Origin: Halobellus clavatus
Lineage (GTDB): Archaea; Halobacteriota; Halobacteria; Halobacteriales; Haloferacaceae
DNA: 64,000 nucleotides
NCBI RefSeq assembly: GCF_900107195.1
Contig: NZ_FNPB01000004.1
Location: 62,001 to 126,000 of the forward strand
Reading direction: 5' to 3'
The notes beneath the pieces are model-generated. The model searched no databases. It was not told where the DNA came from and worked only from the letters and a program-made list of their open reading frames with translations. Shown in pieces: positions 12,292 to 56,580 of this stretch. Both the position numbers and the translations under genes were made by a program. Positions within the stretch are counted from its first letter, which is position 1. Every line of letters starts with the position of its first letter.

Positions 12292-12292
12292 T

Positions 12293-14130: not shown

Positions 14131-14151
14131 AATTCGTGTGAAGAGACGAAT

Positions 14152-27720: not shown

Positions 27721-27738
27721 TTCAACTCCCGATGAGAC

Positions 27739-28428: not shown

Positions 28429-28550
28429 CGTGTGCCTGGGTTGTCGGGTCCGGTATGTATATTATTTGCTCCGGTCGTGCGATCGGTGCGACGCATTCCG
28501 TTTGGACCAGTGATTCCGGTTCCTTGCCGCGAGCGAAGCATACCTGCGGG

Positions 28551-38558: not shown

Positions 38559-39520
38559 CCGCCGAGACAGATCCGGACCGGCGATCGGAGGAACCGACGG
38601 ACGCTCGGGACGAAGACCGACTCCGCGGACGGATCGCCGTCGTTGAAGAGGAAAACCGACGCCTCCGTCAGGAGTATCTCAGAGCCCGCCAGTCTCAGTA
38701 CCGTCGCTCTGCCATCGGAATGGCGTTCGTCGGCGCGGTGGCACTCGTCGGCGCGGCGGTCCTCCCCGCACTGCGACGCACGCTGTTGATTCTAGCGGCC
38801 ACCGGTGGATTCGGCGGCGTGCTCCTGTACTTCCTGACCCCAGACCAGCTCGTTCCGGCCTCTGTCGGAGAGGCGGCTTATACCGCTTATCGATCTCACG
38901 CCACTGCGCTACGGGACGAACTCGGCTTACAAGAACAGTCGATCTACGTCCCGCTTGATCGCACCGACGAGACCGATGCGGGGGTTCGCCTGTTCGTCCC
39001 TCAGACTACCGATTGGGAACTCCCCAACGAACGGTCCCTCCAAGCGACCTTTGTCTCACCGAATCAGGAGCGACGGCGCGGCGTTGCCTTCACCCCAGCC
39101 GCACATCAACTGTGGACCGCGTTCGTTCGAGGGACTTCTCTCATCAACGACAGTCCGGACCGACTGGCGTCCCAACTTGCGGAAGCCGCCGTCGAACAGT
39201 TCGAACTCGCGCGTACCGCTGACGCCGAGGCCGACGAACCGGCACGCCGGGTATCGATCGTCGTCGAAGACGTCTCCTACGGTGTCCCCACACACTTCGA
39301 TCACCCGCTGGTGTCGTTCCTCGCCGTCGGACTAGCCCGCGGCCTCGACACCAGTGTTGAGGTCCCGTCCGTCGACGCGGTCGACACTGGCCATCGGATC
39401 ACCTTCCGGTACGAACAGGCCGCCGCTCACTCGGAATCCGAATCGGCGTCCGACGCGGAGTCCGACGAGGCTGACCGGGACTCCGGGTCCGTATCCGACG
39501 GATCCGAAGCCGAGACCTGA
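38555..39520 (+). CDS. Coiled-coil membrane-anchored protein, third gene of the DUF58 operon
   Basis: A 321-residue protein starting at GTG 38555, which overlaps the previous stop (GTGA). Residues 20-50 form a probable coiled coil (EEENRRLRQEYLRARQSQYR). Two helices follow (about 55-100; AIGMAFVGAVALVGAAVLP and LLILAATGGFGGVLLYFL), then a soluble alpha/beta domain (120-285; RVSIVVEDVSYGVPTHFDHP). The last 30 residues are almost only Ser, Glu and Asp and overlap the MoxR gene antisense. The family is haloarchaeal and its function is unknown. It may be a structural partner of DUF58. Confidence 0.75.
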   Translation: MTAETDPDRRSEEPTDARDEDRLRGRIAVVEEENRRLRQEYLRARQSQYRRSAIGMAFVGAVALVGAAVLPALRRTLLILAATGGFGGVLLYFLTPDQLVPASVGEAAYTAYRSHATALRDELGLQEQSIYVPLDRTDETDAGVRLFVPQTTDWELPNERSLQATFVSPNQERRRGVAFTPAAHQLWTAFVRGTSLINDSPDRLASQLAEAAVEQFELARTADAEADEPARRVSIVVEDVSYGVPTHFDHPLVSFLAVGLARGLDTSVEVPSVDAVDTGHRITFRYEQAAAHSESESASDAESDEADRDSGSVSDGSEAET

Positions 39521-40524
39521 TCGTCGGTTTCGTCGATTTTGCCGCCGTCACCCACCGCAGTCGATTTGGCTGGTGACGCGTCCGGACTCGTCGGTGTCGT
39601 CGTCTCGAGAATCTCTTCGATGATCGTTTCCGGTTCGACCTCGCCGATCTCTGCGTCCGTACTCAATACGAGCCGGTGTGCGAGCGCTGGCACAGCCAGC
39701 GACTTGACGTCGTCCGGGATCGTGTACGCTCGTCCCTCGATGGCGGCGTTCGCTTTCGCGGCTCGGAGCAACTGGAGGCCACCACGGGGCGACACGCCGT
39801 GGCTCACCTCCGGCATCGTCCGGGACTGGTCGACGATGTCGAGGATGTAGTCTCGCACGGCGTCGGCCAAGTGGACGTCGCTGACAATCTCCTGTGCCGC
39901 GTGTATCTCTCCTTGCGAAACGACTTGTTCGAGGTCCTGGGGCCCTAAGTTCGGTGCAGAGTTGAACCGATCGAGGATTTCGGCCTCGCCGCTCCGTTTC
40001 GGAATCCCAAGGTTGATTTTGAGTTGGAAACGATCCCGCTGTGCTTCCGGTAGCCCGAACGTGCCTTCCATCTCGATCGGGTTCTGGGTCGCGATCAGAA
40101 TGAACGGTAACGGGAGTTCCAGCGTCTCGCCTTCGATCGTGACCTGCCGCTCCTGCATCGCTTCGAGCAGTGCACTCTGGGTCTTCGGTGTCGCGCGGTT
40201 GATCTCGTCGGCGATGACAACGTTGGCGAACACGGGGCCCCGTTCCAGCTCGAAGGTCCCGGTGTTTTCCCGATAGACTTTCGTTCCGGTGACGTCGGCC
40301 GGGAGCAGATCCGGTGTCATCTGGATCCGTCGTGCGTTAAGTCCGGTGACGCGGGCGAATGCTTCCGCCAGCGTGGTTTTCGCGACGCCCGGGACACCTT
40401 CGAGCAGCACGTGACCCCTGGTTAGCAGAGAGATAGTCAGGTGTTTGAGTGCGGTATCCTGCCCGATGAGGAGCTTCGAGGCCTCCGACTGCAACTCGTC
40501 GTAGAGGCGGGCCGGATCAGTCAT
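39427..40524 (-). CDS. MoxR-type AAA+ ATPase
   Basis: A 365-residue AAA_3 ATPase. Motifs: Walker A GVPGVAKT, Walker B with VVIADEINRATP, sensor 1 in ILIATQNPIEMEGTF, and an arginine-finger region LPEAQRDRFQLK. The C-terminal lid domain has SHGVSPRGGLQLLRAAKANA. A Ser/Asp-rich tail of about 30 residues follows. MoxR proteins act as chaperone-like ATPases with vWA/DUF58 partners. It is the last gene of a three-gene operon: it overlaps the DUF4350 stop by 8 bases, and its 3' end overlaps the facing operon by 94 bases. Confidence 0.95.
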   Translation of the reverse strand: MTDPARLYDELQSEASKLLIGQDTALKHLTISLLTRGHVLLEGVPGVAKTTLAEAFARVTGLNARRIQMTPDLLPADVTGTKVYRENTGTFELERGPVFANVVIADEINRATPKTQSALLEAMQERQVTIEGETLELPLPFILIATQNPIEMEGTFGLPEAQRDRFQLKINLGIPKRSGEAEILDRFNSAPNLGPQDLEQVVSQGEIHAAQEIVSDVHLADAVRDYILDIVDQSRTMPEVSHGVSPRGGLQLLRAAKANAAIEGRAYTIPDDVKSLAVPALAHRLVLSTDAEIGEVEPETIIEEILETTTPTSPDASPAKSTAVGDGGKIDETDDQVSASDPSDTDPESRSASSDSASDADSDSE

Positions 40525-41569
40525 CGTCGTCCCTTTTATGTTGGTCAGGGATAACTCCTGCTATCAGCCGTTTGACGTCCGCGGTATCCCATTCTGGGTG
40601 TTCAGCCCCAAGATACGCCAGGATCACATCCTGATCGGCGTCGACTGTGATCTCGTCACTGTCGAACACCGAACTGACCACGCGGCGATGTGTCGTCGCC
40701 AGACCAACGCCTCCCAAGGCCAGAGTGCCGAGGGCGACCTGGGCAAGCGGCGACGATCGCAGCCAGAACAGCCACGCGAACAACGGCGGGACACGCTCCG
40801 CGTGGCTGTCGTCGACGACAGCCCGATCGTACTCTTCGAGTACAGCGCCGATGAACTGTCGGTTCCCGGAGCGATCGGACATCGCGTTGATGAACAGAGA
40901 CGGATCACTCACGACGAGTACCGTGCCCTCGCCTACCGACTCGCGGGTCACTACCGGGCGTGATTCGAGGGATTCCTGGTCGTCGAGTGCATAATTGCGG
41001 TTCGTATCTAGATAGGAGAACTCCGAACTGTTCGCGAGAATCGTCGTTCCGTTCGCCCGAATTGCTGTGCCGTGGTTAAGCGTGAGCGTCTGTTCGGGCC
41101 CGATGAGCGTGGAGTTGTTCGTTCCCGACGCGAGAGTGATGTTCGGTGTGCGGTAGTACCGGCGTTCGTCGCGAAGGAGCCGGCCGTCAATTCGGCTCCG
41201 CGCGCCCACCCCCCGCAGCAGGCTCGTCGTCTGACTCCCGAAGTCCTCGGCGACGAGCAGCGTCCCGCCTTCATCGACGTACTGTCGGATCTGTGTTTGT
41301 TCGGCCTCGGTGTAGGCCCGATCGGGCGAGAGCACGATGACGATGCTGTCTTCGGAACGTTCGTACGCCGAGTCGACGGTCGTCGCCACGGATAGTTCCG
41401 TCTCGCCGGTTGCTGCGATCTCTTCGAGATTCGTCGATCCGTCCCAGGCGGCGTTGTAGGCGCTGAACGCTGCTGTGCTCGTGGCCACTCCCGCTCCGAG
41501 CGAAAGGAGAACGAGCAGCGCCAGTCCGACGACGGCGTATCTCGCGTATCGGGCGGTCGAATCCCCCAT
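40517..41569 (-). CDS. DUF4350 membrane protein
   Basis: A 350-residue protein with an N-terminal helix (YAVVGLALLVLLSLGAGV). An outer alpha/beta domain of the GATase-like DUF4350 fold follows (SIVIVLSPDRAYTEAEQTQI, then VDEGGTLLVAEDFGSQTTSL, then GTVLVVSDPSLFINAMSDR). A second helix lies near residue 265, with a short cytoplasmic tail after it. DUF4350 genes are standard members of MoxR/DUF58 loci. It starts 4 bases after the stop of the small membrane gene and overlaps MoxR by 8 bases, so the three are one operon. Confidence 0.88.
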   Translation of the reverse strand: MGDSTARYARYAVVGLALLVLLSLGAGVATSTAAFSAYNAAWDGSTNLEEIAATGETELSVATTVDSAYERSEDSIVIVLSPDRAYTEAEQTQIRQYVDEGGTLLVAEDFGSQTTSLLRGVGARSRIDGRLLRDERRYYRTPNITLASGTNNSTLIGPEQTLTLNHGTAIRANGTTILANSSEFSYLDTNRNYALDDQESLESRPVVTRESVGEGTVLVVSDPSLFINAMSDRSGNRQFIGAVLEEYDRAVVDDSHAERVPPLFAWLFWLRSSPLAQVALGTLALGGVGLATTHRRVVSSVFDSDEITVDADQDVILAYLGAEHPEWDTADVKRLIAGVIPDQHKRDDDD

Positions 41570-41572
41570 CGA

Positions 41573-41848
41573 TCAGAACACTCCCGGGGGAAGAATTGTG
41601 AGAATTCGCTGAACGACGATGTAGCCGAACGCGATCAGTCCGAGAGCGATGACCCAACGGAGTCGTCGCCGCCATCGCGGTGTCACGTGAAACGGCGCCG
41701 TCAGTTCGACGTTGACGAGGAACGCGATCAGCGAGACGACGAAGAAGAGTTCGCCTGTGAGCGAGTCCAATAGCGAGAGGACGAACGCGACCGCAAGCAT
41801 CGCGGCGACCTGCGCGTGGACGAATCGCTGTCGCCGTGAGACTGCCAT
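41573..41848 (-). CDS. Small membrane protein heading the MoxR operon
   Basis: A 91-residue protein with three hydrophobic segments: VAAMLAVAFVLSLLDSL, LFFVVSLIAFLVNVEL and WVIALGLIAFGYIVVQRIL. The ATG at 41848 (MAVSRRQRF) was chosen because the upstream ATG at 41920 adds a polar stretch and lies closer to the promoter region. It ends 3 bases before DUF4350. Similar small proteins often sit at this place in haloarchaeal MoxR loci. The function is unknown. Confidence 0.75.
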   Translation of the reverse strand: MAVSRRQRFVHAQVAAMLAVAFVLSLLDSLTGELFFVVSLIAFLVNVELTAPFHVTPRWRRRLRWVIALGLIAFGYIVVQRILTILPPGVF

Positions 41849-42213
41849 ACACCTACCACGTTGGGCGGATGGTTTGAAGCCATCGGCGGTGAGGTGCGTC
41901 GCCAGCTCCCCGGAGCACATTTAGATACAAATTCTGTTATATCCAAATAATTACTGTTCTCTAATTATCAAATTTGAAATTTAGAAATGATAATAAATAT
42001 GGTATGAGTGGGAGTTAGCGGCGGCCATTTCAGATAGTCTCGACTACTTCGAGAGTATCGGAGGAAAGACTAGATTACCGATTATTGCTCTCTAAGAATC
42101 TAGTTCGTCAAGGATATACACTTCACCGGGTGTCCCATCCACCCATCCGTACGCGGATTTAGAATATGTTGTTGTACCTAAGTATTATAACCCTCCTACC
42201 ATATTCCGTTGAT
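41849..42213. promoter_or_regulatory. AT-rich divergent control region of the giant gene and MoxR operon
   Basis: This 365-base gap is much richer in A+T than its surroundings, above all from 41930 to 42010. It contains a nested symmetric element: attatca (41964-41970) and its inverse tgataat (41988-41994) flank aaatttgaaattt (41970-41982). This could be an operator. A good TATA-like box, tattataa (42183-42190), lies about 28 bases before the giant gene's ATG at 42214, so its mRNA is probably leaderless. No gene is seen in the gap. Confidence 0.5.
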
Positions 42214-45200
42214 ATGAGACGATCGTCTGACACAGGGACCAAACTGATAAGTTTGGTTCTAACGGGGCTGATGGTACTCTCTGTGATAGCGGGGCCGGCG
42301 TCAGCCGCTCTCGCGTCAGAGGACCCATCGAGCGCTATCGAGGAATCAGGTAGCGCCGATCTCGCGTCGCCGTATAATGCTGCGACCAACGGGACAACGA
42401 CTACGACATCTGGTGAGTCGACGGCAACCGAGACCGCTACCGAGACTGCGACTGCGACTCCGACGGAAACCTCGACTCCAACACCTACTCCGACGCCAAC
42501 TCCAACTCCGACCCCGACTCCATCTTCTACCGAAACTACGACTTCCACCTCGAACCAAACGGAAACATCTACTTCCACTACCACTCTAACTTCGACCCAA
42601 ACAGCAACCTCCACTTCCACTGAGACGGCTACCTCATCGCTTAGCACGGATAGTTCGTCATTGTCCCCTACGGCATCTAGCGGAGATGGTTTTGTAGCAA
42701 ATACTTCTGGTGTGAGTAATGGACCTTACGCTGCGACAATTAACGGTGAAGTAGAAAACCTAACGCAAGATGCTGTCGCCTACTTTGAGTGGAAACCTGA
42801 CTCGGCCAGTGAATTCCGTAAAACAGAGAACCAAACTCTCACAGGGAACGAGAGCTTCAACGATACGCTCTCGTTCCTTACCCCGGGAACGACCTACGAG
42901 TACCGAGCAGTAGTTCAGTCAGGTAGCACGACCGACAAGGGCAATCTTCGTAGTTTTACTACCGACACTCGTCCTGCAACTGAAAGCTTCTTCGAGGCAG
43001 GGAATATAGCACTATATGTCCAATCGACTCAAGGGTTACAGGTCGAAGTTGATTCCAGTGCAGTAGCATTGGAGACTGATGTCCCACAATTCGAACTCGT
43101 CGCCGCGAGTGCCCGTGTGCCAGGATACCCCAATGATAAGGAAACTGTTCCCGTCCATCGGTCGGACGAAACATTAGAATTTGACTTTGAGGATACCGGA
43201 GGTGGAAGCCTTTCAGAATTTGGTGGATCCCAGGCAGACATTGTGGCTATCAAGACGGATTCATCTCAGGGGCTTGATTTCTTCTCGCAGCTGACACAGC
43301 TTGACGATCTACTTAACGACGAGAATTCGACTGTTGAAATATTCGAAACGACGACCATCGGAGACAACGAGACCATTACCTACGACCTACAGGCTGAAGG
43401 TCGGGGGAGCGGCAACTACATTTTCTTAGCGGTTAACAACGGAAGCGTCGTCGAACAGAACGGCAGTTTCACTTTAGACCGAACACGCGTGGTCGGACTT
43501 GATTTCGCCATCGTGCAAAATGGCGATGCGAGTACCAGCGTCTCACGTCAGGACCCGTATCCATACCCAGAATTCCGCCCCGGTGAGAATGTCACCGTCA
43601 ACGCGGAAGTCCCACTGTCGGGAGATCAGAGTGAGATCACGCAGGCGGTCATTCTTTACAATGAAAATGCGTTCGACGGGAAAAGGATAGATGCTACGAT
43701 CAATGACGTACAAAACATAGATCCTGATAACATCACCATTCGCTCGGGCATTTCCGGCTTTGATGGTGTCCGTAGAATTGAGGATGGAGCGACGCTCTTA
43801 GGACAAGACCTGGGTGAAAGCGACGAAATTGGAGTCTTCACCATCGACGACGCATTCGGGTTCATTGGCGGTGGCGTCAGTGACAGATTCGAGAATAAGA
43901 GCGGCGCAGAATTAGTTGAAGCCTCGATAGTCGCCAAGGCAGATACAGGAAATGAGACGACTTTTGAGGTTGGCACACTCGAAAGCTTCCGGACGGGTGA
44001 ATCCGCCGAATATTCGATTATCCACGTTGCAGAGAACACCGAAACCGGTGAGATATACACAAACAAAGTAGACGAGAATATCACATTAGTCGAGCAGTTG
44101 GATCCGTGGGCAAATATCGAGATAGATGAAGAGGATTCGCAATTCAACGTACTAGATGGCGAACAGATAGTTATCAATGGTACTATCACAAACGTTGGCG
44201 ATTCCACCGTTGATGACACTGCGACACTATACTTAGATGGTGAAGAGGCATATGTGGAAGCGACTTTACCTCCCTCTCTTGGTGGTGGGACGACACAAGT
44301 TACGATAGACCAAGATTTCTCTCTTGAGCCTGGTGAGTCACAGAACTTCTCACTTAGTTACCCGACAGAGCAAGACGATATGGGTCTCATTGGTGAAGAC
44401 GGTCAGGCACAGTTTAGCGCTGAAGTCCGAACAGAGACTGGTAGTGACGAAGTAGATGTCACAGTCTCCAATGAGACATCCAATTTCAACGTCGAGATCG
44501 ACCGAACTAATTCGGAGACTCTGATTACGCAAGGAGGAAATCTAACCGTCGTCACGAACGTCAGCAACACTGGGGGTCTTCCCGATACTCAAACGATTGA
44601 GGCGGAGTTCGAAGGCCAGGCACTATCCGAAAATCAGGACGTATCAGTCGATCCGGAAACGACAAAAACGGTCGAAATCACCTTCGAGGACGTCAATGTC
44701 GATCCGGGGAGCTACACGGTCAACGTAAGCTCTGAAAACGACTTCGACACTATCGCTGTCGAGGTTGATCCCGGACCGGACTTCGAAGTCGGACCACTCG
44801 AAGTCACTGACACCGTCACTGCGGGCGAAGATGTCCTCGTGAATACGACGGTCGAGAACGTTGGCGGCGCGCGCGGGACACAGGAGGTAGAGTTCCTGTT
44901 CAATGATACAGTCGTCGAGAGCGAGAATGTCTCTCTTGATCCCGGCCCGGTAAGGACGTTCAACTTCAGTGTCCCCACGGACGACGCGGATATCGGTGAT
45001 CGGACCGTGACAGTCCGGACGGCGGATGATTCCGAGACTGACACAGTTACGGTTCAGGCCCCGGCCGAGTTCCAGGTCGAGATCAACGAAGCCGCTTCCG
45101 ATAGCACCGTCGTCGCGGGCGCGAACGCGACGATCGTTGCGAACGTGACCAACGTCGGCGATGTGGTCGACGAGCAAACCATCTCGCTGAATCTGGTCGG

Positions 45201-48200
45201 TCAGCAGGAGGCAACCAAGACGGTCGACTTAGAAGGTGGTACAGATGAGTCGGTCACCTTCGAGTATGACACCCCCGAGGCCGCTGCTGGCGAAACGTTC
45301 AATTTCACTGTCGCCAGCGAGGACGATACCGCCGACTGGAACGTCTCGGTCGTCGAAGGGGCCACCTTCGAGGTCCAGTCGCTTACGGCTCCCCCGAACG
45401 TCTCCGTGGGCGAAACCATCGACGTAACCGCGGTCATCGAGAATACCGGCGGGGTAGAAGGGACCCAGAACGTTGAGTTCCTGTTCAATGACACGGTCGT
45501 CGAGACCAACGAGAGCGTCACGCTCGGTTCCGAACAGTCGACAGAGCTCACCTTCACCACCAACGAGGTAACTGTAAACGATGTCGGAGACCGGAACCTA
45601 ACGGTTCGGACCGACGACGATAGCCAAAGACAGTCGGTCACAGTCCTCGAACCGGCCGAGTTCCAGCTCGACATCAACGAGGCCGCCTCCGACAGCACTG
45701 TCGTCCCTGGCGAGAACGTGACGATAGTCGCGGACGTGACCAACGTCGGCCAAACGTTCGGCGAGCAAGTGATCACGCTGAGTCTGAATGACCAGCAGGA
45801 AGCAACCGAGACGGTCGAATTAGACGGTGGTACGGGTGAATCAGTCACCTTTGAGTATGAGGCCCCTGGCGCTGAGGTTGATCCCGGCGACGAACTTAAC
45901 TTCACTGTCGCCAGCGATGACGATACCGCCGAGTGGCCGGTCACGGTAGTTCAGGGTGCGTTCTTCGAGGTCAGTATCGACGACTTCGACGACAACGTTT
46001 CAGTCGGAGACACGATCACCGTGAATGCGACCGTCGAGAACACCGGGAATGAGAACAGTACGAAAGATGTCGAGTTCCTGTTCAACGACACGGTCGTCGA
46101 GACTAACGAGAGCGTCACGCTCGGTTCCGGTAATTCGACGAAGTTCACTTTCACAACCAACGCGACGACTGTTGCCGATGTTGGCGATCGGACCGTGACG
46201 GTCCAGACAGAAGACGATAGCGCGACCGAAACGGTCAGGGTCCTCGAACCGGCCGAGTTCCAGGTCGATATCGACGAAGATGCTTCCGACAGTACTGTCG
46301 TCCCCGGCGAGAACGTGACGGTCGTCGCGAACGTGACTAACGCTGGCGAGGAGTTCGGCGAACAGGAAATTGCGCTGAAATACTTTGCTGATCCGGTTCC
46401 GAACGAAAGCGAGCGTATCGGCCTGAACGCTTCCGAGACAAAGTCACTTACCTTTGAGTTCAGTACCGGATCTCGACCTCCCGGTGCCAGTATCAATCTC
46501 ACGGTCGTCAGCGATGACGATACTGCCGAGTGGACGGCCACAGTCGTCGAGCCCGCGTCCTTCGATGTCGACATCGATGAGGAAGCCTCCGTGACGAATG
46601 TCACGCAAAACGGGACCGTCGTGATCAGTGCGAGCGTGACAAACGTCGGCGATGTCAGCGGTGAACGGCAGATCGACTTCAACCTCACACAAGACGGTGA
46701 GACTGTCACAACCGACAGCGAGACCGTTTCGCTTGATAGCGGAAGTTCGGAGACGATCGAATTCAACTACACGACATCTGAGAGCGACCGTGGTACTTAC
46801 ACAGCGAACGTCTTCGGCCCCGTCGATACGGACTCAGTCGAGGTCACCGTGAACCGTCCGGCGGAGTTCGACGTCAACATCACTGAACCGGACGAGGGTG
46901 CTGAGGTCGTGGCGGGAGAGGTTATTAATGTCACCGCAGAGATCGAGAACCTCGGAGACTTCTCTGATACCCAGACCGTTCGCCTCCTGGCGAATGAGAC
47001 ACCGGTCAACAGCACCGAACTCGAACTCGATGCGGGCGAAAACCAGACCGTCAGCCTCGAATACCAGACGAGAGAGAACGACACTGGTGACCTGACGTTC
47101 ACCGTTGCGAGCGCGGACGACAGGGACACGCGCAACATCACGGTCCTACAGCCGGCCGAAGTGGTCTACTCCGATCTCACGACGTCCGCTACGGCCGTCA
47201 CTGTCGATCAACCCGTCACCATCTCCGCGCTTGCCGAGAATAGCGGCGATATCGACACTACAGAAGAAGCGACACTACAGATCTCACAGGCAGGAGAGAC
47301 TGTGGCCACGCTGAATGACACGGTCACACTCAACGCCTCCGAGCAGAAACAGGTCCAGTTCGAGTACGCCTTCAACGATACGGGCACGTACAATCTGACG
47401 ATTGTCGGCTCGGGACTCGAAGAAGATATCTCCGTCTCAAATCAGGTCGTGGATCTATACCTCCAGGCCAACGAGACGCAACCCCTGAACGGCAGTGATG
47501 TCCGATTCACCGTGACGAACGCGACGGCCGACGGCGATCCGATCTCGAACGCGACAGTTGCCGTGAACGGCGCGAGTGCGACGACCAACAGCTCTGGCGT
47601 GGCAGTCATCGCGGTGACCGGCAGCGACAACGTCACCGCGACCGCGAGCAAAGAGACGAACGAGACGACTGATACCGCATTCAACAGTTCGTCGGTCGGA
47701 CTCTACGTCCGCCAGCCGTCCGATATCGTCTACAGCGATCTCTCGGTCACGCCAGTCACCCCCGCGACGGGTGAGAACGTGACGATCAACGCCACCGTCA
47801 CCAACACCGACGGTATCGAGAGAGTGTACTTCGCGTCCGTCTACGCCGATGGAGAACAGATCGGCGACTTCATTGGCGGCTCACTTGCACCGGGTGCAAA
47901 CGATACCCTGAGCTTCACCACGTCGTTCGACACCACGGGCATCCGCGAGATTACCGTTGGTGACGCCGACCTCGAGGGCGAGGTCCAGACCGCACCGACT
48001 CCCGTGGCCGTCGAACTCGCTGAACGTCAACTGAGTATCGACGCAAACGAGACAACGATCAACCGTACCGAGACCATTCAGTTCACCGTCCGCGCGGACG
48101 GCGAACCGGTGAACGCGTCGCTGAGCATAAACGGCGACCAATACCGCACCGGCGACGATGGTACGGCGAATATCACCTTCGACGAAGCGGGTGACTTCAC

Positions 48201-51200
48201 GATCACGGCGACCAAAGAACCGACAGAAAGTGTCGCCTACCTCTCGGATTCGATCGACGACGTCCGAGTCAACGCTCCGACCGATATCCGGGTGACCGAC
48301 GTCGCGCCGCTGCGGACCCAGATCTTCACCGGCGACACCCTGACCGTCGAAGCAACGGTCGAGAACCTCGGCGACCTTCGCGGCTCCGAACAGGTAAACT
48401 TCAGCTTCCAGACGGAGAAGAGCGAGACCGTCACACTGAACGGCAGCGAACGGACGACGGTCGTCTTCACTGCTACCGCGAACGAGACGCCGGGCCAGTA
48501 CCCGGTCGTGGTCGAAGACGATACGTTCCAGACGATCACGGTCGAACCCGCAATCGCCACGACCGGATTCACCGTCCCGTCGACGGTGACGATCGGTGAG
48601 GAACTCGTTGTGGCTGCGACCGTCGAGAACCGAGGATCGACTTCAGGTGAGAAGACCGTTCGCCTGAACGTCAACGGGACGGAGAGAGACAACGAGACGA
48701 TTACCGTCCCCGCCAGCAGCGCTCAGACGGTTGAACTGACCTGGGATACCACCGGCAGCAGTGTCGGGGTGAAGAACGTCACCGTCGATGACATCTCCAG
48801 GAAGACGGTGACGGTCGCCCGCCAGCGCGTCGGACTCGACGTCGCCACGAACGCGACGTCGTCGACTACGACAGGCGAACCGGTTCGGTTCACCGTCACG
48901 GCCGACGGCAGTCCGGTCGAGGGCGCGACGCTCCGCGTGGCTGGTCAGACGCTCACGACGGGCCCAGAGGGGACTAACACGACCACGTTCGATTCCCCCG
49001 GTCGGTACACCGCACGCGCGAGAAACGATGACACCGACACGCAGACCTTCCAGCGTGCCGCGACGAGCCTGACGATCCGCGAGCCCGCGGACGTCAATGT
49101 CACTGATGCGTTCCTCCTGACCGACGAGGCGTTCGTTGGCGATGATGTGGACGTGCTCGCAGTCGTCGAAAACGACGGCGGCGTGTCGGGTGACCTCGAA
49201 CTCACTGTCACCAACAGCACGGAGGCGACGGTTGGAAACCGCACCGTAACACTCGGTGCAGGTGCATCTCGGACGGTCACGCTGACGACCCAACTCAACA
49301 CGACCGCCGAAACGGAGACACTCACCGTCAATGACATCGAGGCTGGCACGCTCACGGTCGACCCGCAGTCGGTCGTGACTGCCAGCTCAGTGAACGCCAC
49401 CGCGGTGCGGACCGACGACGTCGTGCGTGTCAATGCGACGATCACCAACCGCGGCAGCACCGAGGATACGGACGGCATCAACGTCACCTTCACCCTGGGC
49501 GATCAGACGAAATCAGTGAACGATACGGGCCCGATCCCCGGTGAGGCTAACGATACGGTCTCGCAGACGTTCTCCTTCGACGGAGATGACGCGGGGACGA
49601 CCTTCGAAGCGACGGCCGCTGGCCCGACGAACGAGCGCAGTGCGGGCACCGTCAGCGTCGCTACTGAAGTGGTCGATCTCGACATAAGCGTCGAGAACTC
49701 GACGGTCACCGCCGGCACGCCGCTGAACTTCACCGTCACGCGGACTGACGCAGAAACCCTTGACACGGCCGAAGTCCAGATCGCGGGTGAAACGCTCAAT
49801 GTCGAAGACGGAACGGCAAACATCACCCTCAACGAAGGCGGCCAGTACACAGCAGTCGTCACGAAGGAAAGTACGGACGGGACCAGCTTCAACGGCGACT
49901 CGGTCGACGTGACGGTCGAAGACCCGGCTCAGATCGAAGTTGATGACGCCTACAGACTCACGAGACAGGCCTACACCGGTGACAACGCGACGGTCGAGGC
50001 CGTCGTGGTGAACAACGGCGATCTCTCCGGGACTGAGACGATCAATCTCACCGACAGCAGCGGAGAAGTACTCGCCAACGAGACCGTCGAAAACCTCGGC
50101 GGAGGTAGCAACACTACGATCAGTCTGAACGCGTCGTTCACCTCCGCCGGAACGCGGACGCTCTCGGTGGGCGACGAAGTGGCCGGTCAGGTCCGGATCG
50201 ACCCGCAGACGGTCGTGACGGGCTTCACGGTCACGAACACGTCGGTGACCGTCGGAGAGCAGGCAACGACGATCAACGCGACGGTTCGTAACCGTGGATC
50301 GACGCTCGACGAGAGCTTCGCCGTGAACCTCAGCGTCGGTGGTGAAGAAGACGTGGCCAACGACACCGTCACCGACCTCGCGGCGGGCGACGTGGCCTAC
50401 GTCGAGTTCACCCGCACTTTCGACACCGTCAATTCGACGAGGGTCGCGGTCAACGAGGAGCCGCCGACGGGCATCCTCGTCACCGAGCGGATCGAGAACC
50501 TCAACCTCACGGTCGAAACGCAGAATCCGACCACCGACGACGAGGTCGTCTTCAACGTCACGAACAGCACCGATGCGGCCGTTGCGAACGCGACGATCAT
50601 CGCGGGCGGCCAGCTCCTCGAGACGAATGCGAGCGGGTTGGCGAACGCGACCCTCACCTCTGGCACGATCACGGCGTCCGTGACGAAGGACGGCGCCCAG
50701 ACCACGTACAACCCCGATAGCGTAACCGTCACCGTGAACCGTCCGGCTGACGTGCGTCTGCTCGGCGCCGACGTGTTGAACAACGAGCCAGTCTACGCGG
50801 GACAGAGCGTCGACGTCGAGGTCGACCTGCTGAACATCGGTGGCATCGCCGCTGACCGGAACGTCACGCTGGCGACCGACGACGGAACGGTGAATTACTC
50901 GATCGAGACGATTCCCGCCGGTGATGCACCGACGGTGACGCTCTCGACGCAACTCAACGAGACCGGTGAACAGACTCTCACCGTCTCGCACAATGAGACG
51001 AACGCGGACCGGCAAGCGACTGTCACGGTTGACGAGGCAGCACGCGTCGCCAACTACACCGTGAACGAGACGGCCGTCTCAGTGGACGAGTCCGTCCGCG
51101 TGCAGGCGAACCTGGTGAACGACGGCGGTATCGACGACTCCGTCCCGGTGAACCTCTCGGTCGACGGATCGCAGACCGAAAGCCGGACCGTCGACGTCGC

Positions 51201-54200
51201 GGCCGGCAGGACGAACTCGACGAACTTCACGGTCACACCCGGGACGAACGGGACGCGTACAGTCGCGATCAACGACTTCGAGCCGACGGACATCTCAGTC
51301 GCGCGTGACGAAGTGTCGCTCGAACTGACGACGTCGACGCCGACTGTCTCCTCCGGCGATACCATCCAGTTCCAGGTCACGAACGCGAGCGACGATACCG
51401 ACTACATCCAGGGCGCGACGATTACGATTGCCGGCCAGCGGGTCTCCACGAACGTGGTCGGTCGGGCCTCCACGTCCGTCCTAGCTGGTGGTAACTACAC
51501 GGCTGTGGTGACACAGACCGGCACCGACGAGATCGCATACGAGCGCGATACCGTCCCAGTCAACGTCACCGACCCGCTCACGGTTTCGGCGGAGGACGGT
51601 GGCGCCTTCGGTGAGGTCGGTGCCACACCGTCTGGCAGCACCGAAGAGACGCTCACAGTCGATGTCATCAACGACGGCGGGCGTCCGATCTCGCTCGGCC
51701 GCGCCAGTATCAGCGGTCCGGGCGCGAGCCAATTTGAGGTCCAGGCGCCCGATTCCATCCCGGCGGACAGTACGGGCGAACTGATCGTGACGTACACGCC
51801 GACGGAACGCGGTGATACGTCGGCGACGCTCCGGTTCCGCGCCGATACGCCGGAAGACCCCGTCCGGGAGGTCAGCCTCTCCGGCACCGGCGTCGCTCCC
51901 GGCATCTCGGTCAACGAGTCTTCGATCCAGTTCGGCGAAACCGGCGCGGACGAGACGCCGACCGAAACGATCGAGATCGAGAACACGGGTAACCGCGAAC
52001 TCCGGATTACGACGACGCTGACCGGAAGCTTCAGCCGTTCCCCGACGGGCACGATCACGGTTGATCCGGGCAACACCACCACCGTCGACGTGACCTTCAC
52101 GGACCAAGGGCCCGGGACGTACGGCAGTCTACTGCGTCTCGGTTCGAACGATCCGTTCAACGGAACGGTCACAGTCGGCGCGAGCGGAACCCGACTCGGC
52201 GGCGAACTCCTGGTCTCACCGAGCGGGGAATACTCGTTCGGCGAGGTCACGCAGGGCTCGACCGAGAGTGCGAGTGTCCTCCTCGAGAACACGGGGACGG
52301 CTGATCTGACCGTGACGCCCGTCGTCGACGACGAAACCAACGGTACGTTCACCGTCGGCCGAGAAGGCGAGGACATCACGCTCGGCTCCGGCGAATCCGA
52401 GTTCGTCTCAGTCGAGGTGACGCCGAACGCGCCGTCACCCACGGCGAACGTCACGTTCGACACCAACGACGCGGCGATCGAGAACGGCACACTGAATCTC
52501 TCGGCGACCACGCTCACGGCGACGGCCGCCGTCACCACGCCGGCTGACGACGCCAACCTCACGTTCGGCGGTGTCGCTGTCGGAGGTTCCGCTACCAACG
52601 CCACGATCATCGAGAACACCGGCGACGCCGCCCTCGAAATCGACACAGCGAACGCAATCTCGAACCCCGACTTCGAGCTCGTCGGTTCGCCCGGGACGAT
52701 CACGATCCAGGCGGGCGACACGCGCGAGATCCCGGTCAGGTTCACGCCGACGAACCCCGGCACTCGGACCACGAACCTGACGCTCGACACGAACGATCCG
52801 AACAACGACCCGGTCAACGTCACCCTGGAAGGCGACGGTGAACGGACGAGCCTCGTCGGCGACCCCAGCACCGTCGAGTACGAGACGATCGGTGAGGGTG
52901 ACTCGATCACACGAACCGTCACGCTCGAAAACGACGGTACCGAGGACCTCACCGGGCTCCGCGTCGACTCGAAGACCGGCAGCGGCGCCGGGCAGTTCGC
53001 GGTCGTCTCCGATACGGTTCCGAGCTCCATACCCGACGGCGAGACGCGGAACGTCACAATCACGTTCGCGCCGACCGCGGCCGGAAGTCACTCCGCGACG
53101 GTGACCTTCGCTGCGAGCGGTGCCGTCGCCGGATCCAGTCAGTTCGCAGTCTCGCTCTCCGGTGAGGCGACGCCCCCGGACGTCGCAGTCAACGCGACGG
53201 ATCTCCAGTTCGGTTACGTGAACACCGTCGAAGACGAGCAGGCGAATAACACGATCCAGATCACCAACGAGGGCCTGCCGGGCACGAACCTCACCGTCGA
53301 GGACGTCTCGATCACCGACAACGAGACGGACGCGTTCACCGTCACAGACGCGCCCGCGGACGATACGGAGATCTCGAGCGACGAGGAAGAGACGATTTCG
53401 GTCGACTTCGATCCCTCGACCACAGGTGAACTGACTGCGACGCTCGCGATCGAGACGAACGACCCCGACGAGGACACCGTCGAGGTCTCGCTGACCGGTG
53501 TTGGGTCTGCACCGAGCGCGTCGGTCGATCAGAGTCAGAGTTCGACCCAGTTCGGAGCGGTCGAGACGAACACCACGAGCTCGCCGGCAACGGTCGAACT
53601 GACGAACGACGGTGGCGAGGACCTCACCGTCTCGGACGTCAGCGCTTCGGGTCAGTTCCGCGTGACGGGCCCGGCTGACAGTGAGTTACCCGTCACCATT
53701 GTCCCCGGCGGGACCCGCACGATCACGGTCGTGGCTGAACCGACAGCGACCGGCGAGCAGACGGGGACGCTCACGATCCAGTCCGACGACCCGGACGGTG
53801 ACACTACCGTCGATCTCGACGCGGACGGGATCGAACCGAACCTCACCGTCACCAGTGAACTGAACGGGACCTTCGGCGACGTTCGCACCGGAAGTTCCGC
53901 CCGGCGCTCCCTCACCGTCACTAACGACGGGAACGCGACGCTGGAGATCGACGAATCGAACGTTACCGGATCCGACGCATTCACCATCGTGAGCGGCGAA
54001 CCGACGTCGCTCGCCCGCGGCGAATCGGAGACGTTCGCCGTCGCCTTCGGCCCCGATGCAAACGAGAGTTACAGCGGGACGTTCGAGCTGACCTCGAACG
54101 ACCGCAACCGCTCGATCGCCCTCACAGGTGACGGCGTCGCGGGCAACGCGTCGCTCTCGCCGTCGGCCAACGACTTCGGCGCGATCCCGATCTCCGACGC

Positions 54201-56580
54201 GCGCGAACAGACGTTCACGTTTGAGAACGAAGGCACCGCGGCGCTCGAAATCACGAGCATCACGGTGACGGGCGACGATGCCTCGGCGTTCTCGGTGAAC
54301 GGCCTGTCGACCGGCACCGTCGACGACGGTGGCGAACGGACGTTCACTGTCGAGGCAGCACCGGGCGTGACCGGTAGCGCGACCGCGACGCTCGAGATCG
54401 GGACGGCCCAGTCCGGGACGACGACCGCCAGCCTCGGCGCGACCGGTGTCGAACAGGACATCGAACTCGACACGGAGGGCCTCACGTTCAACCGGACGCG
54501 CCTCGGAACGACCACGACTACGACACTCACGATCTCCAACCCCGGTAATGCGCCGCTGAACGTGACAGACCTGGCGCTCGCTGGGACCAACTCCGACCAG
54601 TTCAACGTGAGCGATCCGACCGTTACCGACAGTTCACCACTGACGGTCGCGGCCGGCGGAAGCCGTGATGTCGAGGTCACCTTCACTCCGGCGATCGACG
54701 ATGTCGAAGACGCGAAGAACGGCACCGCACAGACTGCACGGCTTATCGTCCGTAGCGACGATCCTGATGCCGATGAGAGCACCCTCGAGGTCGCTCTCAG
54801 CGGTACGGGTAAGACACCCGAACTCCGCGTGAGCAGTGAATCGATCCGGTTCGGTGCGACGTCGCTCGACGACACGTCCACGCGGACGCTGACGGTCACG
54901 AACGACGTCAGTGCTACCGCAGACGTGAACCTCCGTGCTGTCGCTGCTTCGGGTGGCATCGGCAACGAATTCACCGTGACCGATGCTGGAGCAGACGTCC
55001 TCGAACCGGGTGATTCGACGACCGTCACCGTCGAGTTGACACCGCAGGTCCCAGGCGCGAAGTACGGGTCGCTGAACATCATTACGACCGACCCGCGCCA
55101 GCCTGGCAAGTCGGTGTTCCTCTCGAACTCCGAGACCATCGTGACTGTCACGTACGGCAGCGTCATCGCGTCCTATCAGAATGTCCAGCCCGGACTCCAG
55201 CCAGAGCGCTCGTTCCGGCCGTACCCGGGCGCCGACGCGGAGGTGATCGGCACGCAGCCGTTCGTCCAGACGAGCGACGACTTCGAGCTGTCCATCGACG
55301 GCTCGCCGACTCCGTTCGGCGAAGCGGTCGACGAGACTGAGTACACCGACATCCGGTACCTCTCGGCCACGAAGTCGAACATCTCGGCCAGCTCGCTCGA
55401 GAACAACACCTTCACGTTCCGCGTGAGCAAGTCTCGACTCAACGAGTTAGACGCTGACCCGTCGGATGTCAAGCTGCTCCGGTACGACGGGAGCGACTAC
55501 GTCTCCACGAACGTCGAAACCACGTACCTGTCCGGCAGCACCCGTAGTCTCGCTCAGACCAACTACATCTACGAGGCAGAGACCGACGAACTCTCGCAGT
55601 TCGCCATCGTCGTGGACGAGCCGCAACCAAACCTCGTATTGAGCAATGCGAGACTCGGTTCGAGTGAGGTCGAAGAAGGAACGAGCGTCTCCGTCTTCGT
55701 GGACGTGAGAAACGACGGCGGACTCCGAGGAAGTACGACGGTCGCTCTGAGCACGAACCGCACTGTGGGAGGTCCGGATCAAACCGTGACACTTGATTCC
55801 GGCCGATCCACGACGGTCGAATTGACGTTTACGCCTACGGACACCGGCACGTACGACATCAACATCGGTGGCCTTAGCGCCGGTAGCCTGACAGTGAACG
55901 CGGCTGAAGAAGGTGATGGTCCCACCGGTGGCGGTGCTCCGCCTGCCCTCACCGACACGCCCGGCGCCGGAACACCCGCCCCAGTTTCGGCCACGGCCGA
56001 CCTCGACGAGACCGGAACGGCCGCGGTCAATCTCTCAGGCGGCACCGGTGCGACGAGCGTCTCGGTGAACGTCCCCGAGACGACCGGGCAAGTAAACGTC
56101 CAAGAGCTGCCGAGCCCGCCGACGGACGTCCCCGAACCGACGGGACAGTACGTCAGCGGTGTCGACATCGACGCACCCGATCCGCCCGAGGGGCAGACTG
56201 CGACGGTGACGCTAACTATCTCGCAGTCCCGGCTTGACGATCTCGGTGTCACCGCCGATGATCTGGTGATCCAGCACTACACCGACGGCGCGTGGCAGGA
56301 GCTCGAAACGACTGCGACAGAGTCCGGCAACCAGGTTACGCTGAGCGCTCCCGTCACCGGATTCTCACCGTTCGCCGTCACGACGCGTGAACAGGTGACG
56401 ACGACCGCACCGCCGGAAACGACGGCACCGCCCGAAACGGAAACGACGACACCGTCGGACACAACCACCTCGCCTACTGAGGTACCGGAAGAGCCGGGCG
56501 GATTCGGCTTCCTCCCGGTGATAGTCGTCGTCGCGCTGCTCGCGGCCGCGGGGTACCTCATCTATCGGCAGCAAGACTGA
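42214..56580 (+). CDS. Giant 4,788-residue secreted CARDB/ASH repeat protein with PGF-type anchor
   Basis: The ATG at 42214 gives a signal peptide (LISLVLTGLMVLSVIAGPAS); the ATG at 42166 lies upstream of the TATA box. Layout: a Thr/Pro stalk (58-157); a fibronectin-III-like domain (168-252); an unassigned beta region (256-627); about 20 CARDB-like repeats (630-3120), later ones in pairs followed by an Ig-like module ending in TVTVNRP or similar; 11 ASH/choice-of-anchor D repeats (3122-4300; SIQFGETGADETPTETIEIE); a PGF-pre-PGF-like domain (4313-4468; TFTFRVSKSRLNELDADPSD); one CARDB; a second PGF-pre-PGF-like domain (4586-4724); a Thr-rich linker; then EEPGGFGFLPVIVVVALLAA and a polar end. 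The frame is unbroken over 14.4 kb. It is probably a surface fibre or adhesin. Confidence 0.92.
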   Translation: MRRSSDTGTKLISLVLTGLMVLSVIAGPASAALASEDPSSAIEESGSADLASPYNAATNGTTTTTSGESTATETATETATATPTETSTPTPTPTPTPTPTPTPSSTETTTSTSNQTETSTSTTTLTSTQTATSTSTETATSSLSTDSSSLSPTASSGDGFVANTSGVSNGPYAATINGEVENLTQDAVAYFEWKPDSASEFRKTENQTLTGNESFNDTLSFLTPGTTYEYRAVVQSGSTTDKGNLRSFTTDTRPATESFFEAGNIALYVQSTQGLQVEVDSSAVALETDVPQFELVAASARVPGYPNDKETVPVHRSDETLEFDFEDTGGGSLSEFGGSQADIVAIKTDSSQGLDFFSQLTQLDDLLNDENSTVEIFETTTIGDNETITYDLQAEGRGSGNYIFLAVNNGSVVEQNGSFTLDRTRVVGLDFAIVQNGDASTSVSRQDPYPYPEFRPGENVTVNAEVPLSGDQSEITQAVILYNENAFDGKRIDATINDVQNIDPDNITIRSGISGFDGVRRIEDGATLLGQDLGESDEIGVFTIDDAFGFIGGGVSDRFENKSGAELVEASIVAKADTGNETTFEVGTLESFRTGESAEYSIIHVAENTETGEIYTNKVDENITLVEQLDPWANIEIDEEDSQFNVLDGEQIVINGTITNVGDSTVDDTATLYLDGEEAYVEATLPPSLGGGTTQVTIDQDFSLEPGESQNFSLSYPTEQDDMGLIGEDGQAQFSAEVRTETGSDEVDVTVSNETSNFNVEIDRTNSETLITQGGNLTVVTNVSNTGGLPDTQTIEAEFEGQALSENQDVSVDPETTKTVEITFEDVNVDPGSYTVNVSSENDFDTIAVEVDPGPDFEVGPLEVTDTVTAGEDVLVNTTVENVGGARGTQEVEFLFNDTVVESENVSLDPGPVRTFNFSVPTDDADIGDRTVTVRTADDSETDTVTVQAPAEFQVEINEAASDSTVVAGANATIVANVTNVGDVVDEQTISLNLVGQQEATKTVDLEGGTDESVTFEYDTPEAAAGETFNFTVASEDDTADWNVSVVEGATFEVQSLTAPPNVSVGETIDVTAVIENTGGVEGTQNVEFLFNDTVVETNESVTLGSEQSTELTFTTNEVTVNDVGDRNLTVRTDDDSQRQSVTVLEPAEFQLDINEAASDSTVVPGENVTIVADVTNVGQTFGEQVITLSLNDQQEATETVELDGGTGESVTFEYEAPGAEVDPGDELNFTVASDDDTAEWPVTVVQGAFFEVSIDDFDDNVSVGDTITVNATVENTGNENSTKDVEFLFNDTVVETNESVTLGSGNSTKFTFTTNATTVADVGDRTVTVQTEDDSATETVRVLEPAEFQVDIDEDASDSTVVPGENVTVVANVTNAGEEFGEQEIALKYFADPVPNESERIGLNASETKSLTFEFSTGSRPPGASINLTVVSDDDTAEWTATVVEPASFDVDIDEEASVTNVTQNGTVVISASVTNVGDVSGERQIDFNLTQDGETVTTDSETVSLDSGSSETIEFNYTTSESDRGTYTANVFGPVDTDSVEVTVNRPAEFDVNITEPDEGAEVVAGEVINVTAEIENLGDFSDTQTVRLLANETPVNSTELELDAGENQTVSLEYQTRENDTGDLTFTVASADDRDTRNITVLQPAEVVYSDLTTSATAVTVDQPVTISALAENSGDIDTTEEATLQISQAGETVATLNDTVTLNASEQKQVQFEYAFNDTGTYNLTIVGSGLEEDISVSNQVVDLYLQANETQPLNGSDVRFTVTNATADGDPISNATVAVNGASATTNSSGVAVIAVTGSDNVTATASKETNETTDTAFNSSSVGLYVRQPSDIVYSDLSVTPVTPATGENVTINATVTNTDGIERVYFASVYADGEQIGDFIGGSLAPGANDTLSFTTSFDTTGIREITVGDADLEGEVQTAPTPVAVELAERQLSIDANETTINRTETIQFTVRADGEPVNASLSINGDQYRTGDDGTANITFDEAGDFTITATKEPTESVAYLSDSIDDVRVNAPTDIRVTDVAPLRTQIFTGDTLTVEATVENLGDLRGSEQVNFSFQTEKSETVTLNGSERTTVVFTATANETPGQYPVVVEDDTFQTITVEPAIATTGFTVPSTVTIGEELVVAATVENRGSTSGEKTVRLNVNGTERDNETITVPASSAQTVELTWDTTGSSVGVKNVTVDDISRKTVTVARQRVGLDVATNATSSTTTGEPVRFTVTADGSPVEGATLRVAGQTLTTGPEGTNTTTFDSPGRYTARARNDDTDTQTFQRAATSLTIREPADVNVTDAFLLTDEAFVGDDVDVLAVVENDGGVSGDLELTVTNSTEATVGNRTVTLGAGASRTVTLTTQLNTTAETETLTVNDIEAGTLTVDPQSVVTASSVNATAVRTDDVVRVNATITNRGSTEDTDGINVTFTLGDQTKSVNDTGPIPGEANDTVSQTFSFDGDDAGTTFEATAAGPTNERSAGTVSVATEVVDLDISVENSTVTAGTPLNFTVTRTDAETLDTAEVQIAGETLNVEDGTANITLNEGGQYTAVVTKESTDGTSFNGDSVDVTVEDPAQIEVDDAYRLTRQAYTGDNATVEAVVVNNGDLSGTETINLTDSSGEVLANETVENLGGGSNTTISLNASFTSAGTRTLSVGDEVAGQVRIDPQTVVTGFTVTNTSVTVGEQATTINATVRNRGSTLDESFAVNLSVGGEEDVANDTVTDLAAGDVAYVEFTRTFDTVNSTRVAVNEEPPTGILVTERIENLNLTVETQNPTTDDEVVFNVTNSTDAAVANATIIAGGQLLETNASGLANATLTSGTITASVTKDGAQTTYNPDSVTVTVNRPADVRLLGADVLNNEPVYAGQSVDVEVDLLNIGGIAADRNVTLATDDGTVNYSIETIPAGDAPTVTLSTQLNETGEQTLTVSHNETNADRQATVTVDEAARVANYTVNETAVSVDESVRVQANLVNDGGIDDSVPVNLSVDGSQTESRTVDVAAGRTNSTNFTVTPGTNGTRTVAINDFEPTDISVARDEVSLELTTSTPTVSSGDTIQFQVTNASDDTDYIQGATITIAGQRVSTNVVGRASTSVLAGGNYTAVVTQTGTDEIAYERDTVPVNVTDPLTVSAEDGGAFGEVGATPSGSTEETLTVDVINDGGRPISLGRASISGPGASQFEVQAPDSIPADSTGELIVTYTPTERGDTSATLRFRADTPEDPVREVSLSGTGVAPGISVNESSIQFGETGADETPTETIEIENTGNRELRITTTLTGSFSRSPTGTITVDPGNTTTVDVTFTDQGPGTYGSLLRLGSNDPFNGTVTVGASGTRLGGELLVSPSGEYSFGEVTQGSTESASVLLENTGTADLTVTPVVDDETNGTFTVGREGEDITLGSGESEFVSVEVTPNAPSPTANVTFDTNDAAIENGTLNLSATTLTATAAVTTPADDANLTFGGVAVGGSATNATIIENTGDAALEIDTANAISNPDFELVGSPGTITIQAGDTREIPVRFTPTNPGTRTTNLTLDTNDPNNDPVNVTLEGDGERTSLVGDPSTVEYETIGEGDSITRTVTLENDGTEDLTGLRVDSKTGSGAGQFAVVSDTVPSSIPDGETRNVTITFAPTAAGSHSATVTFAASGAVAGSSQFAVSLSGEATPPDVAVNATDLQFGYVNTVEDEQANNTIQITNEGLPGTNLTVEDVSITDNETDAFTVTDAPADDTEISSDEEETISVDFDPSTTGELTATLAIETNDPDEDTVEVSLTGVGSAPSASVDQSQSSTQFGAVETNTTSSPATVELTNDGGEDLTVSDVSASGQFRVTGPADSELPVTIVPGGTRTITVVAEPTATGEQTGTLTIQSDDPDGDTTVDLDADGIEPNLTVTSELNGTFGDVRTGSSARRSLTVTNDGNATLEIDESNVTGSDAFTIVSGEPTSLARGESETFAVAFGPDANESYSGTFELTSNDRNRSIALTGDGVAGNASLSPSANDFGAIPISDAREQTFTFENEGTAALEITSITVTGDDASAFSVNGLSTGTVDDGGERTFTVEAAPGVTGSATATLEIGTAQSGTTTASLGATGVEQDIELDTEGLTFNRTRLGTTTTTTLTISNPGNAPLNVTDLALAGTNSDQFNVSDPTVTDSSPLTVAAGGSRDVEVTFTPAIDDVEDAKNGTAQTARLIVRSDDPDADESTLEVALSGTGKTPELRVSSESIRFGATSLDDTSTRTLTVTNDVSATADVNLRAVAASGGIGNEFTVTDAGADVLEPGDSTTVTVELTPQVPGAKYGSLNIITTDPRQPGKSVFLSNSETIVTVTYGSVIASYQNVQPGLQPERSFRPYPGADAEVIGTQPFVQTSDDFELSIDGSPTPFGEAVDETEYTDIRYLSATKSNISASSLENNTFTFRVSKSRLNELDADPSDVKLLRYDGSDYVSTNVETTYLSGSTRSLAQTNYIYEAETDELSQFAIVVDEPQPNLVLSNARLGSSEVEEGTSVSVFVDVRNDGGLRGSTTVALSTNRTVGGPDQTVTLDSGRSTTVELTFTPTDTGTYDINIGGLSAGSLTVNAAEEGDGPTGGGAPPALTDTPGAGTPAPVSATADLDETGTAAVNLSGGTGATSVSVNVPETTGQVNVQELPSPPTDVPEPTGQYVSGVDIDAPDPPEGQTATVTLTISQSRLDDLGVTADDLVIQHYTDGAWQELETTATESGNQVTLSAPVTGFSPFAVTTREQVTTTAPPETTAPPETETTTPSDTTTSPTEVPEEPGGFGFLPVIVVVALLAAAGYLIYRQQD
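44766..46560 (+). repeat. ~594-base tandem coding repeats (paired CARDB units)
   Basis: The string ccggccgagttccag recurs at 45061, 45652 and 46249, at spacings of 591 and 597 bases. A second string, gagttcctgttcaatgacac, recurs near 45475 and, with one base changed, near 46072. The copies are similar at DNA level over long stretches and always in frame. This indicates amplification of a two-domain unit of about 198 residues. Confidence 0.8.
51577..55125 (+). repeat. Array of 11 ASH (choice-of-anchor D) coding repeats
   Basis: Units of roughly 100-120 residues each start with a strand ending in F-G-x-V (AFGEVGA, QFGETGA, SFGEVTQ, TFGGVAV, QFGYVNT, QFGAVET, TFGDVRT, DFGAIPI, RFGATSL). Each continues with a T-V-T-N-x-G-x-L strand and closes with a segment such as SNDP or TNDP and VSLSGTG. 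These are the marks of ASPM-SPD2-hydin type Ig folds. Confidence 0.8.

Follow-up and report, generated by a model that had tools for sequence, protein, structure and literature searches.

A giant head-and-stalk surface protein of Halobellus clavatus and the gene cluster beside it

The DNA analysed here, referred to as the window, is a 64,000-nucleotide stretch of the genome of Halobellus clavatus, and it carries a single gene of such length, 14.4 kb, that one must ask whether the gene is real, what its protein is apart from its repeats and what it has to do with the genes that surround it. A first-pass annotation, made from the sequence without database searches, had read the gene as encoding a surface fibre built of CARDB and ASH repeats. 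That reading is sound and also incomplete, in that it missed a head domain near the N-terminus and a conserved cluster of neighbouring genes.

The giant gene and its domain layout

A single open frame of 4,804 codons runs from 42166 to 56580 on the plus strand, and the ATG at 42214 gives a protein of 4,788 residues (gene at 42214-56580, +), which confirms the one unbroken gene of the first-pass annotation. The frame upstream of this ATG is conserved in one congener; the start at 42214 is favoured because in genome G043 the homologue has its start at the corresponding position (MRPTTSNRTKLLSLVL...). Orthologues were found in six other genomes, namely three congeners (G013, G009 and G003, the last of which is Halobellus captivus) and Halorubrum trapanicum, H. 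halodurans and H. californiense, the Halorubrum members having been located by scanning genomes with the ASH block. The orthologous open frames, from independent assemblies of the three congeners and of Halorubrum, span 3,566-4,476 aa and have the same kind of module order. These independent orthologues, together with dN/dS values of 0.16-0.50, rule out an assembly error or a chance frame, and purifying selection acts on the gene (against Halorubrum trapanicum, the window gene has a dN/dS of 0.25 in the ASH block and of 0.33 in the distal CARDB/Ig block). Collapse of internal repeats was likewise rejected, since the closest DNA repeats within the gene are only 76-79% identical. In Halorubrum californiense the giant frame breaks close to the 5' end, giving 539 aa and then 3,701 aa (L118:1-2000), through either a frameshift or a sequencing error. 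Giants with 11 ASH repeats are rare, only 7 of the 170 family genomes having one, and the earlier description of the protein as unusual is thus apt for these giants and does not extend to the head family described below.

Searches with Pfam and NCBIfam profiles bore out the proposed CARDB, ASH and PGF-pre-PGF content. Among Pfam families, CARDB scored 193 bits (over its cut-off), ASH 164 bits, Cep192_D4 258 bits and the HYDIN/CFA65/VesB-like Ig family 232 bits; the NCBIfam model choice_anch_D (NF012200) gave 317 bits over 11 stretches, above the family cut-off, and PGF_pre_PGF (TIGR04213) gave 80.5 bits over two stretches, the number of such domains that had been predicted. Profiles built from the protein itself count 21 CARDB, 6 other Ig-like (IGX) and 11 ASH modules, in good agreement with the earlier estimate of about 20 CARDB repeats, interspersed Ig-like modules and 11 ASH repeats. 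The protein is acidic (790 Asp and Glu residues vs 187 Lys, Arg and His) and has no cysteine. Its layout is as follows.

42214-56580 (+): giant head-plus-stalk surface protein, 4,788 aa (open frame, six orthologues)
42214-42306 (+): signal peptide, aa 1-31 (TIGR04207 halo_sig_pep, E=7e-5, slightly below cut-off)
42391-42693 (+): Ser/Thr-rich linker, aa ~60-160 (composition; 43% Ser+Thr in aa 1-200)
42709-42999 (+): Fn3-like domain, named by eye, aa 166-262 (a short stretch recurs in many other surface proteins)
43000-44118 (+): head domain, aa ~263-635 (alignment A1, Pfam scan, genome search, AlphaFold)
44095-47403 (+): CARDB array of 11 repeats, aa 628-1730 (self-HMM)
44737-46512 (+): triplicated CARDB pair with a ~597-nt period, aa 842-1433 (module comparison, DNA repeats)
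47404-51558 (+): mixed CARDB/Ig block, the last part four [CARDB-CARDB-Ig] units, aa 1731-3115 (self-profiles)
51559-55116 (+): ASH array of exactly 11 repeats, aa 3116-4301 (NF012200 in 11 stretches, positional orthology)
55117-55578 (+): PGF-pre-PGF domain 1, aa 4302-4455 (TIGR04213, alignment A2)
55579-55893 (+): membrane-proximal CARDB, aa 4456-4560 (self-profile)
55894-56388 (+): PGF-pre-PGF domain 2, aa 4561-4725 (TIGR04213, best stretch 4615-4723)
56389-56580 (+): Thr/Pro linker and transmembrane tail with EPGGF motif (sequence)

At the two ends, the earlier reading of the protein as secreted and membrane-anchored is supported, with the reservations that the signal-peptide model falls just short of its cut-off and that the PGF-CTERM model, in both Pfam and NCBIfam, does not match the tail (EPGGFGFLPVIVVVALLAAAGYLIYRQQD), in which a variant EPGGF motif precedes the transmembrane segment. 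Though an archaeosortase A gene is present in the genome, the giant is on this account not counted among the archaeosortase A substrates. Between the ends, the claim that two unlike Ig arrays stand in series agrees with an AlphaFold model of their junction (CARDB-CARDB-Ig-ASH-ASH-ASH, 605 aa), in which beta-sandwiches follow one another continuously (mean pLDDT 84) with no disordered linker. Of the long, stiff fibre that had been suggested, the rod of Ig arrays is borne out by this model; the stiffness is not fixed by it, the pTM of 0.46 leaving the inter-domain angles undefined.

The head and the genes that accompany it

The head comprises about 340-370 residues near the N-terminus, and scans of Pfam and NCBIfam found no family for it. 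Its family was delineated with a profile from an alignment of 14 members (A1) run over 99 relatives, among which the head occurs in 24, in 26 copies; the window head is recovered at 369 bits in this genome search and at E=8e-116 with the iterated profile. Apart from those of the giants and two others of 1,882 and 1,216 codons, the frames concerned are of 459-891 codons, so that most of the proteins have about 440-890 residues, and a typical short member consists of a signal peptide, the head, a Gly or Asp linker, often a PGF-pre-PGF-like part, CARDB and a tail. PGF-type tails are present in some proteins of the family and absent from others, so that the mismatch of the giant to the PGF-CTERM model has no bearing on its membership. 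AlphaFold predicts Ig-like beta-sandwiches for the head (pLDDT 70, pTM 0.72), and a known fold was rejected, only generic Ig-like matches with TM ≤0.30 having been obtained. One head protein of intermediate architecture, in G043 (1,869 aa, L112:2913-8519), has Ig and four CARDB modules and an unrelated C-terminus that looks, by eye, like an alpha/alpha toroid.

The genes to the left of the giant include a set that recurs beside heads in other genomes, and are listed here with the second giant protein of the window.

41573-41920 (-): small conserved cluster protein, no Pfam family (locus comparison)
40517-41569 (-): DUF4350 protein, also with a weak ABC_transp_aux match (in 41 of 99 relatives)
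39427-40524 (-): MoxR-type AAA+ ATPase (domain scan)
38555-39520 (+): conserved cluster protein, no Pfam family (locus comparison)
36623-38077 (+): DUF58 protein (domain scan)
34299-36515 (-): MG4 / DUF4129 protein (in 36 of 99 relatives)
33258-34277 (-): DUF1616 membrane protein (420 bits)
30191-33142 (-): FtsX-like permease paralogue, 983 aa (~33% identical to the 24715-27720 permease, via the G013 homologues)
28551-30194 (-): 547-aa conserved cluster protein, no Pfam family (locus comparison)
27739-28428 (-): ABC transporter ATPase (domain scan)
24715-27720 (-): FtsX-like permease with PEGA domain, 1,001 aa (domain scan)
23488-24612 (-): secreted cluster protein, paralogue of 14080-15273 (locus comparison)
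22825-23418 (-): YdjM-like membrane protein, often in the cluster (domain scan, locus comparison)
15507-22586 (+): second giant surface protein, 2,359 aa, CarboxypepD_reg repeats and Glug (domain scan)
14080-15273 (+): secreted cluster protein of family w14080 (locus comparison)

The recurring loci hold MoxR, DUF4350, DUF58, DUF4129, DUF1616, an ABC ATPase with FtsX, two unnamed families and a secreted protein, in orders that have been rearranged between genomes while the head still lies within 30 kb of DUF4350. This is the case in all 13 genomes with the strongest head matches (≥314 bits), and heads scoring below 300 bits are often unlinked to the cluster. The link does not take in the whole cluster everywhere, because the three Halorubrum giants adjoin only the ABC-FtsX pair and their DUF4350 genes are on other contigs; full cluster linkage in Halorubrum was accordingly rejected. 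In these sequence comparisons it is the head, at the N-terminus, that gives the giant its conserved identity and ties it to a widespread haloarchaeal cluster.

Several further features of the locus deserve mention. The two FtsX permeases of the window, within 24715-33142 (-), flank the ABC ATPase and the 547-aa protein, and elsewhere two FtsX proteins of ~410 aa are found instead. Full-length forms of the second giant are confined to the four Halobellus genomes with the fibre; a strict pairing of the two was rejected, as it does not hold reliably in Halorubrum. The G003 homologue of this second giant ends in a PGF-type tail. Near it lies a subtilase-family protease of 944 aa (9589-12423, -) that could process surface proteins. 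Third-codon-position GC is 0.70-0.82 across ~14000-56600 vs 0.85-0.90 just downstream, and because of this difference the cluster may be a genomic island. The same genome encodes another giant, of 3,760 aa (L067:279-11558, G000:C22), with tandem-95/VCBS repeats, three CARDB and a PGF-CTERM-like tail, which is related to Bap-type adhesins.

The head family can also be followed to an experimentally studied archaeon. A glycopeptide of HVO_2160, MPSNANIMGVTPGSR, is printed in the glycoprotein map of Haloferax volcanii (PMC8241124), and among the 170 family genomes searched it matches frames of 2,257-2,261 codons in three genomes of one genus, which is very probably Haloferax. Two of these proteins, read over their whole length, carry the head at 86-410 and after it Ig, two CARDB, a middle part and three CARDB, with 25% Ser+Thr, and the one that was scanned (G110) matches the Pfam PGF-CTERM model. 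Downstream of these frames lie genes for a secreted protein, YdjM, an ABC ATPase, two FtsX, a small protein and DUF4350, then for MoxR, an unknown protein, DUF58 and DUF4129, with DUF1616 in the genome that was read far enough; the ABC ATPase and DUF1616 fall where HVO_2163, an ABC transporter (PMC10869688), and HVO_2173, a DUF1616 protein (PMC8241124), fall in H. volcanii, whose genome has DUF4350 in a control search. HVO_2160 is the largest H. volcanii protein and is N-glycosylated at 19 sites (PMC8241124); it exceeds 2,200 aa, with 24% Ser+Thr, and has been termed a mucin (Muc19) with a possible water-binding role (PMC3956466). Since the peptide match, size, Ser+Thr content and gene order all agree, HVO_2160 very probably carries the head. 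Five of the proteins encoded by hvo_2160-2173 are N-glycosylated, the authors calling the reason for their clustering unknown (PMC8241124), and hvo_2160-2176 has been tied to cell shape, chiefly on account of the neighbouring genes rdfA, sph3 and ddfA (PMC10869688).

Fixed, variable and exchanged parts of the giants

All seven Halobellus and Halorubrum giants have exactly 11 ASH repeats, and when the proteins are compared in pairs, 230 of 231 repeats find their best match at the same position in the other protein. A tree of all 77 ASH repeats resolves every one of the 11 positions as a monophyletic group (support ~0.95 or more), so that the array has never gained or lost a unit. The repeats within one protein are only 31% identical on average; with G013 left out, those at the same position are 62-86% identical between species, and the membrane-side repeat, ASH11, is the most conserved (81-89%). 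The giants thus offer an instructive example of a repeat array, kept at every position across two genera, that is not free to drift in repeat number. A frame in G090 (L072:4120-11952), cut by the contig end, has at least 21-22 consecutive ASH repeats and represents a different ASH giant, of another family.

The number of CARDB modules, counted with the same profiles, ranges from 11 to 21 among the giants. The window and G009 proteins are collinear module by module, save for one CARDB pair that is single in G009 and triple, with a 597-nt period, in the window, and the CARDB array has for this reason most likely expanded close to the head, through tandem duplication of a unit of two domains.

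Different parts of the giants also have different nearest relatives. The first ~165 and last ~230 residues of the window protein are nearest to G013 (65-86% identity), to which most of the flanking cluster genes are also more than 70% identical (61-91%). The interior stretch between aa ~1635 and ~4455 lies closest to Halorubrum (52-88%, mostly >65%) and far from G013 (28-53%), and its dS is 0.53-0.68 vs Halorubrum trapanicum and 0.87-0.93 vs the congener G003. As to the heads, that of Halobellus captivus groups with those of short proteins (0.98, with G054) on a stalk common to the other giants, and the other six giant heads group apart from it (1.0). Judged by these groupings and distances, heads and stalk cores have been exchanged between lineages. 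The stalk-core exchange may have taken place in the window lineage or in that of G013.

Possible roles and known systems

The giant is probably a membrane-tethered tower with the head at its outer end, that is, a stalk-expanded form of the HVO_2160-type head family. It would be exported by Sec and N-glycosylated, and its transmembrane tail would hold the C-terminus in the membrane; the ASH block would form a membrane-proximal rod of fixed length, and the CARDB units an adjustable spacer by which the head is brought out beyond the S-layer. Reckoned at ~4 nm for each of its ~40 Ig-like domains, such a stalk might in full extension reach an estimated ~150 nm. From its position, the head would be the contact part, for adhesion or recognition, and the linkage of the genes suggests that the cluster is the machinery that assembles, anchors or moves the giant.

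Three other explanations have to be set against this one. The giant could contribute to a protective, mucin-like coat, a hydrated glycosylated layer such as has been proposed for Muc19/HVO_2160 and halomucin, with a head that binds nothing. Its 24% Ser+Thr, its Thr-rich linker and its 159 N-X-S/T sequons (vs 66 expected from composition) are what such a coat would have, as is the water-binding role suggested for HVO_2160; the Ser and Thr residues are, however, distributed over folded Ig modules, different genera have kept the head, and a bulk coat would have no need of ASH repeats conserved position by position, all of which makes this explanation unlikely. Variable self/non-self recognition or toxin delivery by a protein diversified through recombination, in the manner of VARTIG or of polymorphic toxins, would account for the short-protein-type head of Halobellus captivus on a common stalk and for a window stalk whose core is nearer Halorubrum and whose ends are nearer a congener, also at synonymous sites. 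It seems quite unlikely, as Pfam and NCBIfam scans found no toxin or immunity domain in the giant, and as the VARTIG proteins of Thermococcales, likewise large CARDB/Ig secreted proteins diversified by recombination, have hypervariable C-terminal Ig domains (PMC8416519) and different gene neighbours, whereas it is the C-terminal-side ASH11 that is most conserved here. The protein could lastly be a plain surface adhesin whose place beside MoxR and DUF4350 is an accident, and the Halorubrum fibres, which do not adjoin these genes, are in keeping with that; the 13 of 13 genomes in which the strongest heads lie near DUF4350, vs a chance of ~2% per genome, make an accident very improbable.

The membrane-tethered tower, our preferred reading, can be extended to the cluster as a whole. 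It is possible, and we propose it tentatively, that MoxR, DUF4350, DUF58, DUF4129, DUF1616 and ABC-FtsX form a machine dedicated to the assembly, anchoring or movement of a single class of haloarchaeal giant head-and-stalk surface glycoproteins, an archaeal counterpart of the gliding/T9SS apparatus by way of the GldG-like DUF4350. In these glycoproteins the 11-ASH part, next to the membrane, would be fixed and the CARDB part adjustable. SprB is a giant adhesin handled by that apparatus.

Comparison with known systems shows partial resemblances. The first-pass annotation had likened the ASH repeats to those of ciliary proteins, and the nearest solved relatives are indeed Hydin, FAP74 and FAP65; sequence profiles of the ASH part match Hydin, CFAP74 and CFAP65 with E from 6e-14 to 2e-4. 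These are cytoplasmic ciliary proteins that have only the ASH-type Ig domain in common with the giant. Literature searches found no paper on archaeal ASH giants and nothing useful on PGF-pre-PGF function. The bifidobacterial PFNA operon (pkb2, fn3, aaa-atp/MoxR, duf58 and tgm; PMC8430577) likewise joins a large multi-Fn3/Ig secreted glycoprotein to MoxR and DUF58 genes, and its tgm would correspond, by position only, to DUF4129; the two are not homologous as a whole, and no Ser/Thr kinase (pkb2) gene was found among the 20 window neighbours scanned. Another likeness is to the secretion system predicted in archaea around arCOG01314/DUF4350 (Makarova, Galperin and Koonin 2015, PMC5898192), which brings together the GldG-related DUF4350, MoxR, a vWA/Ig protein, DUF1616 and Ig-type surface proteins. 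The window has the DUF4350 and MoxR pair and DUF1616, and a DUF58 protein is encoded at the place of the vWA/Ig protein; in the portions of that paper on which this comparison draws, a giant fibre is not described, and the loci compared here add DUF58, DUF4129 and ABC-FtsX as constant members. HVO_2160/Muc19, as represented by the MPSNANIMGVTPGSR-matching genomes, has the head followed by Ig and CARDB, a similar Ser+Thr content and the same neighbouring genes, and differs in its ~2,260 aa, its lack of an ASH array and its standard PGF-CTERM tail, the window protein being twice as long and having 11 ASH repeats. The comparison offers a common scheme for the hvo_2160-2173 glycoproteins and the cell-shape region, a surface giant of the head family with a conserved set of membrane proteins that matches the predicted secretion system, and so makes the reason for the clustering testable in a genetically tractable archaeon.
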